From Methylococcaceae bacterium (GTDB lineage: Bacteria > Pseudomonadota > Gammaproteobacteria > Methylococcales > Methylococcaceae), in the NCBI GenBank assembly GCA_004299145.1, contig SCQD01000044.1, positions 1 through 64,000 of the forward strand: a stretch of 64,000 nucleotides of DNA. The letters run 5' to 3'. The notes under the pieces were generated by a model. The model saw only the letters and a list, made by a program, of their open reading frames with translations, did no database searches and was not told the DNA's origin. The translations under genes were made by a program, and so were the position numbers. Below, piece after piece: positions 11,312 through 61,540 of this stretch; the stretch's first letter is position 1; each line of letters opens with the position of its first letter.

Positions 11312-11935
11312 TTAATGTGTGCTGTTTCTGATACTGACCATATGGCGTTCCGCCGCTAAACCAGGTACGTGCAACGCGTCGATCCGCCAGGGAAAAGACA
11401 GGTGCGCCAACTCGGCTTGCGGGTCGCGTCCTTTCATGGCCAGCCAGAGGCCACCGTATTTGAGCAAGTGGCGGGTTTTGTCGATGAAATCGGGTATCGA
11501 AGCAAAAGCGCGTGAAATAACGGTATTGAAGCCACCGGCATATTCGAAATTTTCTGCCTGGCTGGTTATCACGCCGGCATGGCTTAAACCCAGTTCCAGG
11601 ATGGCCTGGCGTACAAAGCGGGTTTTTTTGCTGCTGCTGTCCAACAGCACGAATTGGTACTGTGGCGCCGCAATCGCCAGTGGGATACCCGGTGTGCCGC
11701 CGCCTGTGCCTATGTCCGCAATATGCCGGCCCTGTAGATAGGGCAGGGCGGTCAGGCTGTCCAGAATATGCAGGCGCAGTATGTCTTCCAGACTGTCTTT
11801 CGACGTCAAATTGTAAGTTTTATTCCATTTTTTCAGTAGCGCGCCGTAGTCCAGCAATTGTTGGATCTGCGTGGCATTCAAGGCTATTCCCAGCTGCTCC
11901 AGGCCTTGCTCCAGCGACGATTTAAGCGTTTGCAT
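11312..11935 (-). CDS. rsmG: 16S rRNA (guanine527-N7)-methyltransferase RsmG (GidB)
   Basis: '[48 protein letters not shown]'; conserved position next to mnmG. Confidence 0.96.
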
Positions 11936-13814
11936 GGTTCAAGCGCTTTTCTTTTTTCAGGTGGATCAACAACAACGAAATTGCCGCCGGCGTAATGCCG
12001 GGAATCCGCGCCGCCTGACCCAGGGTTTCCGGGCATTGATGACGCAGTTTTTCGCGCACTTCATTGGATAAGCCGGTTACCTGTGTGTAATCCAGCTCCA
12101 GTCCCAATTCGATGTCTTCATAGCGGCGATTCCGCTCGATCTCGGCGTGCTGGCGCTCAATGTAGCCCGCATATTTGGCCTGGATTTCCAATTGCTCCAA
12201 CACTTTGTCATCGGTTTCCGCAGCCAGAAACTCCACGACGGAGGCTAATTGGCCGATGGCGACTTCGGGCCTGCGCAATAAATCCAGTAACGTGGTTTCG
12301 CGTTGCAGCGGACTGCTCAACCGCGGATTCAGCGCTGCCGCCTGCACGCTGGATGCTTGTATCCAGGTCGTGCTCAGCGCATCCTGCAAACGCGCTATGG
12401 ACGACTGTTTTTGTGCAAACGCCGCCCAGCGTTCGTCGTCGACCAGTCCCAGCTCTCGCCCTTTTTCCGTCAAGCGCAAATCCGCATTATCTTCACGCAG
12501 CAACAAGCGGTATTCGGCCCGGCTGGTAAACATGCGGTACGGCTCTTGCGTTCCTTGCGTGATCAAATCGTCCACCATCACGCCGATGTAGGCCTCATCC
12601 CGATGGGGCGACCAGGATTCCATGCCCCGCGCCAAGCGCGCTGCGTTAAGCCCGGCCAGCAGACCTTGCGCCGCGGCTTCTTCGTAGCCGGTGGTGCCGT
12701 TGATCTGTCCCGCCAGAAACAGATGGCTCATATGCTTGTGTTCCAGCGAGGCTTTCAAATCACGCGGATCGAAGAAATCGTATTCGATGGCGTACCCCGG
12801 ACGGGTTATGTGCGCATTTTCAAAGCCGCGTATCGAGCGCACCAATGCCAATTGGATATCGAACGGCAGACTGGTGGAAATGCCGTTTGGATAGATTTCA
12901 TGCGTATCCAATCCTTCCGGCTCGACAAAAACCTGGTGTGAATCGCGTTGCGCAAAGCGGACGATTTTATCTTCGATGGAAGGGCAGTAGCGCGGTCCTA
13001 TGCCTTCGATGACCCCGGCATACAACGGTGAACGGTCCAGGCCGGAACGGATGATATCGTGGGTTTTTTCGCTGGTTCTGGTGATGTAGCAAGAGACTTG
13101 GCGCGGGTGCTGATCCGGGTTTCCCATAAACGAAAAAACCGGCAACGGCATATCGCCGGGTTGTTCCTGCAGCAGGGCGTAATCAATGCTGCGGCCATCA
13201 ATGCGTGGCGGCGTGCCGGTTTTCAGGCGCCCCACGCGCAATGACATTTCCCGCAAGCGTTGCGCCAAACGATTGGCGGGCGGATCGCCGGCCCGGCCGC
13301 CTTCGTAATTTTCCATGCCGACGTGGATACGGCCCGCCAAAAACGTGCCTACCGTCAATACCACGCAGGCGGCGCGAAAATTCAACCCGGAATCGGTAAC
13401 CACGCCGCTTACTTGCTGGTTTTGTACCGAGATATCCCGCACCGATTGCTGAAACAAATACAGGTTAGGCTGGTTTTCCAGCGCGTGGCGCACCACTTTT
13501 TTATACAAAGAACGGTCGGCCTGGGCGCGCGTTGCCCGTACCGCAGGACCTTTGCTGGCGTTGAGTATGCGAAATTGAATGCCGGCCCGATCGATGGCGT
13601 GGGCCATCAAGCCACCCAATGCATCGATTTCCTTGACCAAATGGCCTTTACCGATGCCGCCGATGGCGGGATTGCAGCTCATTTGTCCCAGAGTTTCTAT
13701 GTTTTGCGTCAACAACAGAGTTTTTGCGCCACTACGCGCTGCCGCCAGGGCGGCTTCGGTGCCGGCGTGGCCGCCACCTACGACGATTACGTCAAATGAA
13801 TTCGAATACAGCAT
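11922..13814 (-). CDS. mnmG: tRNA uridine-5-carboxymethylaminomethyl modification enzyme MnmG (GidA)
   Basis: '[62 protein letters not shown]'. Confidence 0.98.
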
Positions 13815-14834: not shown

Positions 14835-15785
14835 ATGACCGGGTTTTGGTCCAAATTCATCCCAAAACGCCAGCCCCGCCTGGATAAACATCCGTTCGTG
14901 CTTGGCCTGCATAACGTTTACGTATTACCTGGCCGCTGGGGAATAAGTTTTGTGGTGCTGGTTTTTTTGTTATCCATTATTTCCACCAATTACAACAATA
15001 ACCTGGGTTTTTTGCTCACTTTTTTGTTGACGGTATTGGGTTTGGCTTCCGCCATCCATGGTCAGCGCAATTTAGCGGGACTGTCTCTAACTCCCGGTAA
15101 AGTCGATGCCGTATTTCTCGGCGAGCCTCTGGCGTATCCGCTTCAGCTTGAAAACGCCTCCTTCAGTGCCCGTTACGCCATCACCGCCATTACCTCGAAC
15201 GGTGATAAATACGCTGTTGCGCAGGCCGTGCCTCATTCCATCACGCCTATCCTGCTCTATGCCATCCCCAGCCGGCGCGGTCGGCACAGCATCGGTACGC
15301 TGGTGGTGGAAAGCCGCTATCCGTTCGGGTTATTTCGCTTATGGACGCGATTTACTTTTGCTTGGCATGGTCTGGTTTACCCGGCTCCCGCACCCGACAG
15401 CAAGCCATTGCCCATTTCATCGGATGAGCAAGGAGCCGGCGCGGGCAATGTCGCCGGCGACGATGATCTCACGGGTTTTCGCCGCTACCAGACGGGCGAT
15501 CCGATCAAGCACCTGCACTGGAAAAGTTACGCCAAAGGCCGTGGTTTGCACACCCGGATTTATTTGCAAGGTAGTCCGAAATTTTTGTGGGTCGATTTCA
15601 ATATGGCCGATGAAGCGGATGTAGAGGCAAAAATCAGCCGTTTATGCCGCTGGGTTCTGGATGCCGAACACATGGGCATCGATTACGGTCTACGGTTGCC
15701 TGGCTTGGAAATTGCCCCGCATCGGGGTGCCAGTCATCTGGAGGCCTGTCTGACCGCTCTGGCTTTGTTGACAATCACCCGCTAG
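14835..15785 (+). CDS. DUF58 domain-containing protein
   Basis: ATG at 14835, 4 bp after moxR stop; 'DDLTGFRRYQTGDPIKHLHWKSYAKGRGLHTRIY' is the DUF58 signature. Confidence 0.9.
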   Translation: MTGFWSKFIPKRQPRLDKHPFVLGLHNVYVLPGRWGISFVVLVFLLSIISTNYNNNLGFLLTFLLTVLGLASAIHGQRNLAGLSLTPGKVDAVFLGEPLAYPLQLENASFSARYAITAITSNGDKYAVAQAVPHSITPILLYAIPSRRGRHSIGTLVVESRYPFGLFRLWTRFTFAWHGLVYPAPAPDSKPLPISSDEQGAGAGNVAGDDDLTGFRRYQTGDPIKHLHWKSYAKGRGLHTRIYLQGSPKFLWVDFNMADEADVEAKISRLCRWVLDAEHMGIDYGLRLPGLEIAPHRGASHLEACLTALALLTITR

Positions 15786-15789
15786 ATCT

Positions 15790-15798
15790 GTGCATAAG
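15790..15798 (-). promoter_or_regulatory. DnaA box (TGTGCATAA = TTATGCACA)
   Basis: Exact match to TTATNCACA on the minus strand, just after the DUF58 stop. Confidence 0.65.
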
Positions 15799-15824
15799 TG
15801 GAATGAATGCCAACGGCATGATGT

Positions 15825-15921
15825 TGTCCACATCTTCTGCCCATGCGCCAAGCTACTTGTCCACAACTTTGTGAACGGCTGGATAATGGGCGCAGCAATG
15901 CTTGCAGCGTTCTGTGCACAG
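15825..15921. promoter_or_regulatory. Near-consensus DnaA boxes: TTGTCCACA (15825-15833), TTGTCCACA (15857-15865), TGTGCACAG (15913-15921)
   Basis: The two TTGTCCACA sites differ from TTATCCACA at one position; followed by an AT-rich stretch at about 15933-15976. Confidence 0.5.
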
Positions 15922-16009
15922 CATTTTCATCGCTAATAGTAATAGAAAATAATATTTTTACATTACTATTATTACTGCCGTTGCGCCGCTATCTTCGTGT
16001 GGTCCGAAT

Positions 16010-17950
16010 ATGAACAAGTTTGTTTCGACAACCCGCCAGCGTGAATTGATACTAGGCTTGGGCATAATCTGTTTGCCATTTTTTTTGTATTTGTCATACG
16101 GTGCTTTGTTTTTTTTCTATTTCATCATTGGTTTTCGTTATCTCTCGCTCTCTAAAAAGCCAGCGAATCCACCCCGCCGCATCTTATTATTACTCACCAT
16201 TGCAGGTGGAATTATTGTTTGGCTGCAAGCCAATGGCATATTGGGCAAAACATCCGGCGCCAGTTTGTTGCTGGTCGGTACGTGTCTTAAATTTTTGGAA
16301 GTTAAAACCAAGCGTGATTTATATATCATAATTTCTTTGGCCCTATTATTGGTACTGACGCAATTCCTGTTTTCGCAAGCCATTTTTATGGCTTTGTATT
16401 TATTTTTTGCGCTAACCATCATTTGTGCCTTGTTGCTGGGTTTGCACGTCGAGCTGGAAGTTTTTCCCTTTGTGCAGCGGCTGCGAAAATCAGCGTTTAT
16501 TATTTTTCAGTCTTTACCGCTTGCCCTGTTGTTATTTTTATTTTCGCCACGCATTACCGGACCGTTGTGGAGTTTGCCTGAAGAAAAACCGGCTTTAACG
16601 GGATTGGGCGATAAGTTGGAACCCGGCAGCATTACGCAATTGGGCTTATCCAGCGAGTTGGCTTTTCGCGTCAATTTCGTAACAGCCCCGCCGCCACAAA
16701 ACCAGTTATATTGGCGCGGGCCGGTATTTTGGTGGACAGACGGCAAGCACTGGGAGATGCGCAATTTGCCCAATCTTGATCTTGAGCATGCCCCGGTTTT
16801 TTACCAGGGTACTGCTGTCGACTATTCCATCGTGCTGGAACCGCACGGCCAAAAATGGCTGTTGGCGCTGGATCTGCCGCAAATGATTCCTGCGGACAGT
16901 CATCTGACTTTGGATTTTCAGTTATTGTCCAACGCCAACGTACTGAATCGGCGGTTGTATGCGCTACGCTCCTATCCCGTCTATGCGCAAAAAACATTGA
17001 CTTCGTTTGAACGGCGCTTGGGATTGCAGCTTCCCGCAAACCAATTGGATTTGTTGTATCCCCTGGTAACCCACTGGCGAGTTGGCCATACCGACCCTGA
17101 AGTTATTGCCCTGGCGCTGGCATATTTTCGCAACAATCATTTCTTTTATACGCTTAACCCCCCTTTATTGCTGCATCATCCCATCGAGCAATTCTTATTG
17201 GAAACCCGGCGCGGTTTTTGTGAGCACTATGCCACGGCATTTGTCGTTTTGATGCGGCTCGCCGAGATACCAGCCCGCGTTGTGACCGGGTATCAGGGGG
17301 GGCAATGGAATGAATTGGGAAAATTCCTGGAAATCAGGCAAAGCGATGCACACGCCTGGGCCGAAGTATGGCTGGAAGATCAAGGTTGGGTCCGGATAGA
17401 TCCCACTGCCGCCATTGCGCCTGAACGTATTGAAAAACCATTTGACGCTGCTTCCATCAACATTGAATCTTTAAACACGCCTACTTGGCAAAAGGAAGTT
17501 TCCGTTTTATGGTCGAAATCGTTGCGTATCTTCTGGGCCAACCTGGATCATGGCTGGCACCGTTGGGTGTTGAGTTATGATCGCGACAGTCGTGCACGGC
17601 TTTTACAATGGTTTGACGCTGCTTTTTCCTGGCACTGGCTGTTAGGACTGATCGCGGCAGTCCTCATGTGCTGTATTCCTTTTTTATTTTTATATGGGCG
17701 CGATTTTTTCAACCATCACGATCCTGTTCAGCGCTATTACCTTTGGTATTGCCGTAAATTGGCTGATTTAGGTTTACCGCGTCGTCCCTGTGAGGGGCCG
17801 CTGGATTATTCACAACGCGCGTCAATGGCTCGTCCGGATCTTGCCGCAAAAATTTCCGACATTACCCGTTTATACGTCTTGTTGCGTTATGGCTCTGTTT
17901 TTGACCGCAATCTTACGAAAATGCTGCGTTTTCATGTGTCACAATTATAA
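16010..17950 (+). CDS. tgpA: TgpA-like transglutaminase (DUF3488 + transglutaminase-like domain), membrane protein
   Basis: Multi-TM N-terminus, 'RRGFCEHYATAFVVLMRLAEIPARVVTGYQGGQWN...SDAHAWAEVWLEDQGWVRIDPT' transglutaminase core; follows moxR-DUF58. Confidence 0.92.
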   Translation: MNKFVSTTRQRELILGLGIICLPFFLYLSYGALFFFYFIIGFRYLSLSKKPANPPRRILLLLTIAGGIIVWLQANGILGKTSGASLLLVGTCLKFLEVKTKRDLYIIISLALLLVLTQFLFSQAIFMALYLFFALTIICALLLGLHVELEVFPFVQRLRKSAFIIFQSLPLALLLFLFSPRITGPLWSLPEEKPALTGLGDKLEPGSITQLGLSSELAFRVNFVTAPPPQNQLYWRGPVFWWTDGKHWEMRNLPNLDLEHAPVFYQGTAVDYSIVLEPHGQKWLLALDLPQMIPADSHLTLDFQLLSNANVLNRRLYALRSYPVYAQKTLTSFERRLGLQLPANQLDLLYPLVTHWRVGHTDPEVIALALAYFRNNHFFYTLNPPLLLHHPIEQFLLETRRGFCEHYATAFVVLMRLAEIPARVVTGYQGGQWNELGKFLEIRQSDAHAWAEVWLEDQGWVRIDPTAAIAPERIEKPFDAASINIESLNTPTWQKEVSVLWSKSLRIFWANLDHGWHRWVLSYDRDSRARLLQWFDAAFSWHWLLGLIAAVLMCCIPFLFLYGRDFFNHHDPVQRYYLWYCRKLADLGLPRRPCEGPLDYSQRASMARPDLAAKISDITRLYVLLRYGSVFDRNLTKMLRFHVSQL

Positions 17951-17996
17951 TAATGTCAATATATTCTTTATTTATTATTATTAGCTTTGAAAATTC

Positions 17997-18128
17997 TGTG
18001 CACATCACGCCATAAGCCTTGCTACGCTTGTCTTACAGCGGTTTGTCATGTTGTGGACAAGTCGACTGATGCCTGTGCAGAGAGTGTGTATAATTTCTCG
18101 CAGTTGGTGTTCATCCGACTTATGCACA
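17997..18128. promoter_or_regulatory. Second DnaA-box cluster: TGTGCACAT (17997-18005), TGTGGACAA (18052-18060), TGTGTATAA (18085-18093), TTATGCACA (18120-18128)
   Basis: Two exact TTATNCACA matches and two degenerate sites; preceded by an AT-rich tract at about 17943-17985. Confidence 0.55.
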
Positions 18129-18231
18129 GACTTTAGGGTTGATTGTCAACAATGATGTCAAGATTTTTTTGCCCTAAATCTGATTCAATTCAGGTATGAT
18201 TTTTTTCTCTCAATAAGAAGGTATATCAACC

Positions 18232-25874: not shown

Positions 25875-25883
25875 TGTGGATAA
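25875..25883 (-). promoter_or_regulatory. DnaA box (TGTGGATAA = TTATCCACA) in rpmH-dnaA intergenic region
   Basis: Exact consensus match 93 bp upstream of the dnaA start. Confidence 0.7.
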
Positions 25884-25975
25884 CTTCACTGTCTTGAGTT
25901 ATTATGACACTCTGGATTTTCTTCTTTTTTCACGCTTTTTTGCGTGTCTGCTCATGGCAATTATTCTTAGATATC

Positions 25976-27307
25976 ATGTCTGCTTGGGAACAGTGCGTAG
26001 GCATATTACAAAGTGAATTACCGGCCCAGCTGTTCAACACTTGGATTCGCCCTTTGCAGGCTGTCGAAAGCGAATCTGAGCTAAAACTTCTTGCTCCTAA
26101 CCGATTTGTTCTTGACTGGGTCAAGCAGCATTTTTTGCCGCGTATCGAAGAATTACTGACCAGTTTGCCCGATTATTCGTCCATGAGGATTGCGCTGGAA
26201 ATTGGCAGCAAGCCTCCATCGCGTGAGCCGCTTGCTAATCCATCCATACCTTCAAAAAAACCTAGTATAGGCCGCAAACAGGCGATACCTAATAACTTAA
26301 ACTTGTCTTTTGTATTTGAAAATTTTGTCGAAGGCAAGTCCAATCAGTTGGCCAAAGCCGCATCCTTACAGGTTTCCGAGAACGTTGGCCGTGCTTATAA
26401 TCCATTATTCATTTACGGTGGTGTTGGGCTAGGTAAAACTCATTTGATGCATGCTATAGGTAATAATATCCTTAAGAATAACCCATCTGCAAATGTTGTA
26501 TATTTGCATTCTGAACGTTTTGTTTCTGATATGGTTAAGGCTTTGCAGCATAATGCTATTAATGCATTTAAAGAACATTATCGCTCCATGGATGCACTTT
26601 TAATCGATGATATTCAATTTTTTGCTGGCAAAGAGCGCTCTCAGGAAGAATTTTTTCATACATTTAATACTTTGCTTGAAAATAAGCATCAAGTTGTACT
26701 TACCTGTGATAGGTATCCAAAGGAAATAAAAGGGTTGGAAGAGCGCCTAAAGTCTCGTTTTGGCTGGGGATTGCCTGTTGCAGTTGAGTCTCCGGATTTA
26801 GAAACCCGTGTGGCGATTTTGATCAATAAAGCAACCCAATCCGGCGTTTCCTTGCCTGATGATGTCGCATTTTTTATAGGGGAACGTATCCGGTCCAATG
26901 TTCGTGAGTTGGAAGGCGCATTGCGACGTGTGATTGCCAACTCTCAATTCACCGGTGAGCCTATCACTTTGGGGTTTGCTAAGGAAGCGTTACGTGATCT
27001 TATCGCGTTGCAGGATAAGTTGGTGAACGTCGATAATATTCAAAAGACCGTTGCTGAATATTATAAGATTCGTCTTTCCGATTTGTTGTCTACCAGTCGC
27101 AGCCGTAATGTCGCGCGTCCACGTCAATTGGCAATGGCATTGGCAAAAGAGCTGACCAGTCATAGTTTACCTGAGATTGGCCAGTTTTTTGGTGGCCGCG
27201 ATCATACCACGGTTTTGCACGCTTGTAGGAAAATCCAGGAGTTGCGCGATACTGATAGTAAGCTGTCAGATGATTATTCCAATTTATTGCGCGTTATTTC
27301 AAGTTAG
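25976..27307 (+). CDS. dnaA: Chromosomal replication initiator DnaA
   Basis: ATG at 25976 '[28 protein letters not shown]'; '[22 protein letters not shown]', '[18 protein letters not shown]'. Confidence 0.98.
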
Positions 27308-28455: not shown

Positions 28456-29574
28456 ATGGCATTGGCTCGATTAACGATTTCTTCGGTACGTAATGTTCGT
28501 CATGCTGACTTGAGCCTTAGTCCCGGATTGAATTTATTGTTTGGGGCTAATGGCAGTGGTAAAAGTTCCGTGCTTGAAGCAGTGCATTTTTTGAGTCACG
28601 GCAAATCGTTTCGCGCTGGAAACCCTCGCCAATTAATCAGTCATGGGGATAAGGAATTTGCTGTTGTAGCTGGTTTGTATAGCGATGATTTGCATGCTGG
28701 TGCTACTCATCAAATTGGCGTTAGCTTATCTGGCGGTTCGCGGAATCGTCGCATAAATGGACGAAATTGTACTCGTCAATCCGAAATTGCCGCATTGTTC
28801 CCCGTATCGATTTTGCAACCCTCTGCTCAAATATTACTTGAGTCTTCCCCGGATTTACGCAGGCGTTTTTTGGATTGGGGCTCTTTTCAATTATGGGGTT
28901 CTGATTTTTTGTCTACTTGGAAGCGTTTTTCCATGTGCCTTGAACGACGTAGTGTTTTGCTGCGATCTGCAGATACTTCTATGTTAAAGGTATGGGAAAG
29001 CGAGCTTTGCCGTTATGGCGTTGCTTTAGCCAACGCTCGTAGTTCTTATTTATCCAGATTGATGCCTTATTTGCTCGAATCTGCCGGCATTTTACTGGCC
29101 GGCTCGGGTACCTTGATGCTTCATTTTGATCACGGCTGGTCTGTAGACTTAGATTTTCAGGATGCACTTGCTACTAGTCGCGAGAAAGACCGTCGCTTGG
29201 GGTATACCTCGATTGGTCCTCATCGTTGTGATTTTCGTCTGCTGGTAGATGATGTTCCCGTACGACAATATTTGTCACGTGGTCAACTTAAACTCGCTGT
29301 AGCTACTTTGAAAATCGCTCAAGCCCGACTGGCTCAAGAGGTTTGTGGTGTTGGTAATGTTTGTTTGCTGGTAGATGACTTATTTGCCGAATTGGATTTA
29401 GAGAATCGCGGTATTTTTTTAAATTATTTACAAGAACTAGGTCTACAGGTGCTGGTGACTGGTACTGGTGCAGAACAGTTTGACTGTTTAAGCTCCTATG
29501 CGGATACGGCCATGTTCCACGTGAAACATGGTGCGATCACCCCGGCTGAAAATATACAATTCAAAAAAAGGTAG
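28456..29574 (+). CDS. recF: DNA replication and repair protein RecF
   Basis: ATG at 28456; 'NLLFGANGSGKSSVLEAVHFLSHGKSFR', 'RGQLKLAVATLKIAQA', 'CLLVDDLFAELD'. Confidence 0.96.
   Translation: MALARLTISSVRNVRHADLSLSPGLNLLFGANGSGKSSVLEAVHFLSHGKSFRAGNPRQLISHGDKEFAVVAGLYSDDLHAGATHQIGVSLSGGSRNRRINGRNCTRQSEIAALFPVSILQPSAQILLESSPDLRRRFLDWGSFQLWGSDFLSTWKRFSMCLERRSVLLRSADTSMLKVWESELCRYGVALANARSSYLSRLMPYLLESAGILLAGSGTLMLHFDHGWSVDLDFQDALATSREKDRRLGYTSIGPHRCDFRLLVDDVPVRQYLSRGQLKLAVATLKIAQARLAQEVCGVGNVCLLVDDLFAELDLENRGIFLNYLQELGLQVLVTGTGAEQFDCLSSYADTAMFHVKHGAITPAENIQFKKR
29513..29528. promoter_or_regulatory. parS: parS centromere site (TGTTCCACGTGAAACA)
   Basis: Exact 16-bp match to the canonical ParB/Spo0J parS sequence, within the 3' end of recF (encodes '...MFHVKH...'). 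Confidence 0.93.
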
Positions 29575-38770: not shown

Positions 38771-39125
38771 GGGGGCGACATGGCTTCGACGTGGATCGCA
38801 AAACCTTAGGTGCATGCCGAGGGGCAGAGAACCTCGTAAATCCAACTGCACATTTATAGTTGCCAACGACGACAACTACGCTCTGGCTGCTTAGTCGGCC
38901 AGCCTTCGTGAGAATGCCTGCTTATGGGCGTTCTTCTCGGGGGTAACCCAAACATAAGCTACGTGGTGAAGCCTGTCCGGGGCGGATCCGCTAAAACCTC
39001 ACGGAATCGCTGAATGCTCCCTGCCCGTCGGGCAGCCTTCAGTTAAATCAATAGGCTGGGATAAGCATGTAGATCCGAGGGCGGAGGATTTGCGGACGCG
39101 GGTTCAATTCCCGCCGCCTCCACCA
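38771..39125 (+). ncRNA. ssrA: Transfer-messenger RNA (tmRNA), tag peptide ANDDNYALAA
   Basis: 5' GGGGGCGACATGG, internal 'gccaacgacgacaactacgctctggctgcttag', 3' tRNA-like end 'gcggacgcgggttcaattcccgccgcctccacca'. Confidence 0.97.
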
Positions 39126-60253: not shown

Positions 60254-61540
60254 TTATGCGGCGTCCCCGCTCCACTGCCGCAAATAATCCTCGTAGGTGT
60301 AGGTCTTTTGCCGGTGGAGTTTCCCCGCCGCATCCAGCGCGTAAATAGAGGGGAAATTATGGCCGTTGAAGCGATTGGCTTTGATCAGGCTGTAAGCGCC
60401 GACATCGGCAAACACCATCATGTCGCCTATCCGGGGCAGGGCAGCCAGGCGGTATTCGCCGAACACGTCCCCCGCCAAACAGGTGCCTCCCGCCAAAACA
60501 ACTCGATGGACGCCGTGGCGTGATTCATTGAGTAGCCGCGGGCTGCGCTGATATTCGAACACTTCAGGATGGTGGTTCACCGAGGTATCCAGTACGGCCA
60601 GGGTTTTGCCGCCGCTGTCGAATACGTCCAGCACCCGCGTTGCCAGAAAGCCGGCGGCACCCACGATCGCTTTGCCGGGTTCGAAAAACACAGCGAGCCG
60701 CCGTTCTCCACACAGCCGCAAAATGATTTCCGCCAGATCCGCCAGTTCTTGCGGGGTGTCCCATACATAGCCGCCGCCCAGATTGATCCATTGCAAACGG
60801 TAAAGCCAGCCGCCCAGCGCGTGCTCGATTTTTGCCAGCGTTTGTGCCAGCGGTTGAAAGTGGCGCGACTGAAATATGTTGTGAAAATGGATGCCTTGAA
60901 CTTCATCCAGCAGCGGATCGCCGGCAGTCAGGCGCGCGGATAATTGGGACAACGGAACGCCCAGCTTGGAATGGGGCCGGCAAGGATCGTAGCGCGCATC
61001 ATCGAGAAACGAACACTCGGGATTGACGCGCAAGCCGGCGTTGAGCCGGTTTTGCGCCAATGGCTGCAGGTGCCGCCACTGGCTGAGCGAGTTATAGCTG
61101 AGATACCCGCACAAGCCGGCGATTTCATCCATGTCCTCGGCGCGCAGACCGGGCGTAGTGATGTGCAAACCAGCCGGTTCCGCACCGGCGGCGGTCGCCA
61201 GTTTGGCTTCGAACAAGGAGGAAACGGCAAAACCATCCAGTTGGGGGCGCAGTTTTTCCAGCAGGGGTAGAAAAGGCAGGGCTTTGACGGAATAGAGAAC
61301 TTTAAGCGGGCATAGGCGCTTTACCGTTTGCAAGGCTGCCAGGCGCTGCGCTATCAGGGATTCGTCATAAATAAAAGCCGGGGTGCTAAGCCCCGGCTGA
61401 TTCAGACGTGTAAAAGTGGAGTCCGGCAAAATATTGGCTGAAGTACGGCGAGTTACCGAGAAAGTCGCGGCAACCTTTACCCCCAAACCCTCGCTTCGCT
61501 CTCCCTCTGGGAGAGGGTCGGGGTGAGGGAAACCGGTCAT
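60254..61540 (-). CDS. nspC: Carboxynorspermidine/carboxyspermidine decarboxylase (start uncertain)
   Basis: 'GLSTPAFIYDESLIAQRLAALQTVKRLCPLKVLYSVKALPFLPLLEKL', 'IHFHNIFQSRHFQPLAQTLAKIE', 'WINLGGGYVWDTP'. The first ~40 residues of the ORF are repeat-derived; the true start may be a TTG near 61430. Confidence 0.9.
   Translation of the reverse strand: MTGFPHPDPLPEGERSEGLGVKVAATFSVTRRTSANILPDSTFTRLNQPGLSTPAFIYDESLIAQRLAALQTVKRLCPLKVLYSVKALPFLPLLEKLRPQLDGFAVSSLFEAKLATAAGAEPAGLHITTPGLRAEDMDEIAGLCGYLSYNSLSQWRHLQPLAQNRLNAGLRVNPECSFLDDARYDPCRPHSKLGVPLSQLSARLTAGDPLLDEVQGIHFHNIFQSRHFQPLAQTLAKIEHALGGWLYRLQWINLGGGYVWDTPQELADLAEIILRLCGERRLAVFFEPGKAIVGAAGFLATRVLDVFDSGGKTLAVLDTSVNHHPEVFEYQRSPRLLNESRHGVHRVVLAGGTCLAGDVFGEYRLAALPRIGDMMVFADVGAYSLIKANRFNGHNFPSIYALDAAGKLHRQKTYTYEDYLRQWSGDAA
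61463..61530. repeat. Dispersed palindromic repeat (CCTCACCCCGACCCTCTCCC...GGGAGAGCGAAGCGAGGG...GTTGCCGCGACTTTC on minus strand)
   Basis: Shares core plus the downstream 'GCCGCGACTTT' tail with the in-frame repeat in dabA. Confidence 0.8.

Follow-up and report, generated by a model that had tools for sequence, protein, structure and literature searches.

Two inverted DnaA-box and AT-rich modules flanking tgpA as the probable origin of chromosome replication in a Methylococcaceae bacterium

The window analysed here, a stretch of 64 kb from the 4.6-Mb draft genome (353 contigs) of a Methylococcaceae bacterium, carries on either side of a tgpA-like gene an arm with a cluster of DnaA boxes and an AT-rich element, and the two arms are inverted copies of each other. 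This paired-arm locus is almost certainly the chromosomal origin of replication (oriC), an assignment that is based on the GC skew of related genomes, on box and AT statistics, and on the conserved location. The reading that we prefer, with a probability of roughly two in three, is that the right arm is the ancestral oriC and that the left arm arose from it as a complete duplicate in inverted orientation and is maintained under selection, with two sites for DnaA assembly and unwinding about 2 kb apart. A first-pass annotation had already suggested that the origin may be at this locus, and this proposal is well supported by the same three lines of evidence.

On the minus strand the gene order is parB-parA-rsmG-mnmG, after which moxR, a DUF58-like gene and tgpA follow on the plus strand, giving the arrangement mnmG-moxR-DUF58-like-[left arm]-tgpA-[right arm]. 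To the right of tgpA there are a glycine-zipper lipoprotein gene and motBA, and farther right mnmE-yidC-rnpA and dnaA-dnaN-recF-gyrB. In gammaproteobacteria, mnmG (gidA) often adjoins oriC. Here it is an open reading frame at 11922-13814 on the minus strand, with homologues detected by tblastn, and it is separated from the paired-arm locus by two genes and from the right arm by three, which is close to mnmG in the sense of an E. coli-type origin. The gene between the arms (16010-17950, plus strand) encodes TgpA_N, transglutaminase and DUF4129 domains according to Pfam. The name of the DUF58-like gene is derived from synteny and sequence resemblance; the open reading frame had no match in Pfam or NCBIfam. 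A parS site, TGTTCCACGTGAAACA, which is an origin-proximal partition site, occurs at 29513-29528. The GC content is 42-52% over positions 16000-38000, which include the origin, dnaA and gyrB, versus 53-67% across most other parts of the window. The window further contains a tmRNA gene (38771-39125, tag ANDDNYALAA) and two copies, at 1935-2004 and 61461-61529, of a dispersed repeat of 50-70 bp, CCCTCACCCC...GGGAGAG, which matches the own genome at 43 or more places and looks like a REP/MITE-type element.

Since the own genome is a draft in 353 contigs, GC skew was taken from two complete relatives, the congener G016 and the genome G004 from another genus. In G016 positive skew extends from 0 to 2.0 Mb and negative skew from 2.1 to 3.7 Mb; values stay near zero up to 3.99 Mb and become strongly positive at 3.998 Mb, which is the gap 3' of tgpA, about 20 kb before dnaA. 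In G004 negative skew covers 1.6 to 3.43 Mb and gives way to positive skew afterwards. Within the contiguous stretch of 3.380-3.457 Mb the cumulative minimum of G004 is located at 3,445,014 and falls in a paired box cluster (3,444.5-3,446.4 kb), beyond which there is noise to about 3.5 Mb; dnaA of this organism is located at 2.847 Mb, deep in the negative-skew arm and 600 kb from the paired cluster. In both genomes one flank of the switch is sharp, and the other is blurred by noise over about 100 kb. In the own contig the skew dips only slightly, with a local minimum at 12-18 kb, and beyond 18 kb it is steadily positive; in a further relative, G017, it is too irregular to place a switch. As a control, the same box scan was applied to mnmG loci of Klebsiella, Citrobacter, Vibrio and Halomonas and recovered the expected cluster about 350 bp upstream of the gene; these control loci were obtained with MnmG as the query, and a search for related loci with TgpA as the query gave no match.

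The box clusters stand out clearly within the window. When spans of 145 bp were scanned over the 64 kb for sites with at most one mismatch to TTATNCACA, three boxes were found only in the gaps to the left and right of tgpA, one cluster in each, which places both clusters above background. The first-pass box counts of three exact TTATNCACA and three TTGTCCACA sites in the gaps were confirmed, as were the two AT tracts. From the outside inwards, the left arm carries a weak box-like site TTGTCAACA (15766-15774, minus strand), the box TTATGCACA (15789-15797, minus), and two TTGTCCACA boxes (15824-15832 and 15857-15865, both plus). The right arm, read away from tgpA, carries TTGTCCACA (18052-18060, minus), TTATACACA (18085-18093, minus), TTATGCACA (18120-18128, plus) and the identical weak box TTGTCAACA (18143-18151, plus). 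The only box that differs between the arms is the left TTGTCCACA at 15824, of which the mirror partner is TTATACACA; both are acceptable DnaA boxes. Between the boxes and the AT tract both arms have the same TGTGCACAG element (15913-15921 in the left arm). An exact TTATTCACA box at 17806, within the coding sequence of tgpA, is probably due to chance.

Each cluster is accompanied by a candidate DNA unwinding element (DUE). The left one (15929-15979, minus strand) reaches an AT fraction of 0.90 and the right one (17934-18000, plus strand), with the run 5'-TTATTATTATTAG-3', an AT fraction of 0.93. According to nearest-neighbour stability, the least stable 40-bp window of the 64 kb is 17943-17982 and the second least stable is 15934-15973, with values of -0.92 and -0.93 kcal per step, and the third window is clearly more stable (-1.05). 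An AT-rich element adjacent to the boxes occurs in both arms, and the two candidates are equal in instability. Both contain trio-like runs of the form 3'-GAT-TAT-NAT-TAT-5' that lead away from the box cluster, on the plus strand in the right arm (NAT is TAT) and on the minus strand in the left arm (NAT is CAT). In the basal unwinding system, DnaA filaments are loaded along DnaA-trios in the direction away from the boxes (Richardson et al. 2019, PMC6669920). Both arms resemble this system in having a box, a short spacer and trinucleotides of the 3'-GAT-5' type that run 3' to 5' away from the boxes, but the trio-proximal boxes are degenerate here (TGTGCACAG), and two systems face each other.

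The mirror-symmetric order of boxes, AT tract, gene, AT tract and boxes, which had been recognized in the first-pass annotation, exists because the two gaps are inverted copies of each other, a homology that had escaped notice. In a blastn self-comparison, positions 15765-15973 and 17943-18152 form an inverted repeat with 74% identity (E 7e-28), the left arm having its boxes outside and its AT element facing tgpA, and the right arm having the order tgpA, DUE, boxes. The local alignment of the arms has a score of 120, against a maximum of 31 among 1000 dinucleotide-preserving shuffles, and the own genome contains just these two copies of the module. Identity between the arms is 93% in the motif columns (three 9-bp boxes, the TGTGCACAG element, the TTGTCAACA site and the trio-like run) and 66% in the remaining spacer columns, a difference for which the Fisher p value of 4e-5 is only indicative because the motif columns were partly picked after viewing the alignment. 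The DnaA boxes and the AT-rich element are preserved while the spacers drift.

Comparison with relatives indicates which of the arms came first. In L280 and L285, two loci from genomes that belong to a different family of the order (f5), the gene series mnmG-moxR-DUF58-tgpA is followed by a single unit of AT element and boxes, in the same position and orientation as the right arm. In the congener G016, box units are present in the gap 3' of tgpA, there is no left arm, and a gap between DUF58 and tgpA is absent, since the codons of the two genes overlap. The DUF58-like proteins of all relatives end with LALF plus one to three amino acids, or a close variant, and tgpA follows close behind; only the protein encoded in the window continues, with LALLTITR, using codons at the beginning of the left arm, of which the outer 20 bp or so double as the last codons of this gene. 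The different C-termini and the proximity of tgpA in relatives show the left arm to be a derived inverted copy that was inserted between the DUF58-like gene and tgpA, and the conserved place and orientation identify the right arm as the ancestral, continuous oriC module.

Paired units are also found elsewhere in the family. The pattern TGTGGANAA-N(34-40)-TTNTNCACA had matches in 19 of 38 family genomes, and the reversed control pattern had none in the same 38. Three genera (g5, g11 and g13) possess two units with the AT elements facing inward around qmcA-nfeD, which encode SPFH and NfeD proteins according to Pfam, between ppk2 and tgpA. In G004, G020, G025 and G028 no part of the retrieved locus is less stable than these two AT elements. 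Two units in tandem rather than mirrored were found in G016 and G019, and one unit in genera g8 and g9. The resolved genera in this survey exclude g2, g3, g7, g12, g14 and g15. With four mirror-pair and two tandem-pair genera, the numbers are too small to prove selection of the inward mirror form. The place and orientation of the right arm are conserved in relatives (L280 and L285), and paired units exist in other genera. An alignable pair was found only in the own genome: a DNA search with the right arm as query, which covered 311 genomes of the order, gave no other such pair, and its matches were short and mostly AT-rich. Units of one genome are often closer to each other than to those of other genomes, with similarity z scores, inflated by the shared boxes themselves, of 53 for the two arms of the window, 24 for G019, 23 for G016, 22 for G025 and 16 for G004. 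This likeness within genomes points to repeated duplication or concerted evolution. A role of tgpA as a conserved spacer was rejected: in relatives the units are separated by qmcA-nfeD or by no gene at all, or there is just one unit.

Other arrangements of boxes were noticed during this survey. In genus g9, nine DnaA boxes are packed into one dense cluster upstream of moxR (L076:3528-3754, L078:4714-4940). In Methylocaldum (g6, G006) a second box cluster is located 9.8 kb from the first (L178:8740-8910 and about L178:18660-18793), and the AT elements of this pair apparently point outward. In genomes of another family of the order, the dnaA-dnaN gap contains two or three tandem units of DnaA boxes and AT element (L275:8987-9900, L277:16238-17200, L281:9750-10340, L282:9102-9560).

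Under the preferred reading of an ancestral right arm and a selected duplicate, ATP-DnaA would bind both box clusters. In the right arm, the boxes would feed an ATP-DnaA filament through TGTGCACAG onto the trio-like AT-rich unwinding element, and each arm would direct a filament onto the strand that bears its trios and unwind its own DUE in the direction of tgpA, after which the helicase would be loaded and forks would depart in both directions. DnaA binding, unwinding, helicase loading and the use of both arms in cells are predicted from the motifs and their arrangement.

A different role for the left arm deserves serious consideration, although we regard it as the lesser possibility. The right arm may be the sole origin, and the left arm a derived cluster for DnaA titration or regulation, comparable to datA, DARS or incA, that also controls tgpA transcription. 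The left arm could then be preserved merely for DnaA binding. A single DUE is what known origins have, clusters of DnaA boxes in the vicinity of origins are often regulatory, the left arm is directly upstream of tgpA, and the ancestral place is held by the right arm alone, all of which would fit. Titration does not need an AT/trio element, however, and the left arm has retained one that ranks second for instability among all 40-bp windows of the 64 kb, as well as an unchanged TGTGCACAG.

The mirror pair might also be one obligate origin with two unwinding elements, each loading one helicase, which we consider rather unlikely. DnaA filaments would form on opposite strands, one helicase would be loaded per DUE on its free strand, and the helicases would cross through the spacer gene before bidirectional forks emerge. 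If this were true, the inward mirror form in four genera would be a selected geometry and not a leftover of duplication.

Bipartite origins as described so far consist of two box clusters with the DUE in one of the sub-regions and with dnaA as the usual spacer (PMC4285127). The incA/B-incC region of Bacillus subtilis and oriC1-oriC2 of Helicobacter pylori resemble the tgpA locus in having two clusters with a spacer gene between them and a total length of about 2 kb. That the locus is such an origin, with one functional DUE and tgpA as a dnaA-type spacer, seems unlikely to us. Its overall length of about 2.4 kb is near the size range given in PMC4285127, and the proposed analogy with these two bacteria stands as far as two clusters split by a gene are concerned. 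It fails in that these origins have one DUE whereas here there is a candidate in both halves, the halves are inverted copies, the spacer is not dnaA, and the single-unit ancestor is intact in other taxa. Because each half has its own unwinding element, the tgpA locus is not a standard bipartite origin. The right arm alone, with a DUE beside the boxes in one gap close to mnmG, is similar to the continuous oriC of the E. coli type, including a TTATTAG element beside the box side, which we take to be equivalent to that at the R1-proximal 13-mer of E. coli. The differences are that the module is present twice in mirror image, that mnmG and the right arm have three genes between them, and that a GATC cluster is lacking: dense GATC sites, as expected for SeqA/Dam, were not found, with no site in the right arm and one at the edge of a left box. 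Pseudomonas twin ARS origins and the putative double origins in DoriC also comprise more than one origin-like region close together, but they are by dnaA or far apart, and in the portion of the source available to us none is described as mirror-image copies (Gao 2015, PMC4403523).

An origin at rpmH-dnaA or dnaA-dnaN, the location in Pseudomonas or Methylomonadaceae, is very improbable. The dnaA gene (25904-27307, plus strand, from the open reading frame list) has one perfect box at 25875 in its upstream gap, and box clusters do occur at dnaA-dnaN in genomes of another family of the order, but the 64-kb box and stability scans detected neither a cluster nor an unstable tract at this place, and the skew switches about 20 kb before dnaA in G016 and 600 kb from it in G004; this location was therefore rejected. 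The description of the origin as lying away from dnaA is correct in that the two are not adjacent, and needs qualification in that dnaA follows on the right after only about 8 kb. An explanation by chance or by simple AT-rich repeats between genes can be dismissed in view of the alignment statistics and the reversed pattern, even though AT-rich intergenic gaps are common.

A search of the open-licence literature, with subscription journals outside its scope, yielded no paper on oriC of Methylococcaceae or on a mirrored origin with two DUEs. The reason for the existence of split origins is an open question (PMC4285127). The occurrence of two complete inward-facing modules with different spacer genes in several genera of methanotrophs would mean that the role of a box cluster is separable from that of the DUE. 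Paired modules also allow deletion tests of whether two unwinding sites are in competition, serve as a backup for each other, or load one helicase each. For the Methylococcaceae, a location of oriC that is independent of dnaA would be useful for genome rotation, for the construction of minichromosomes and for estimates of replication rate.
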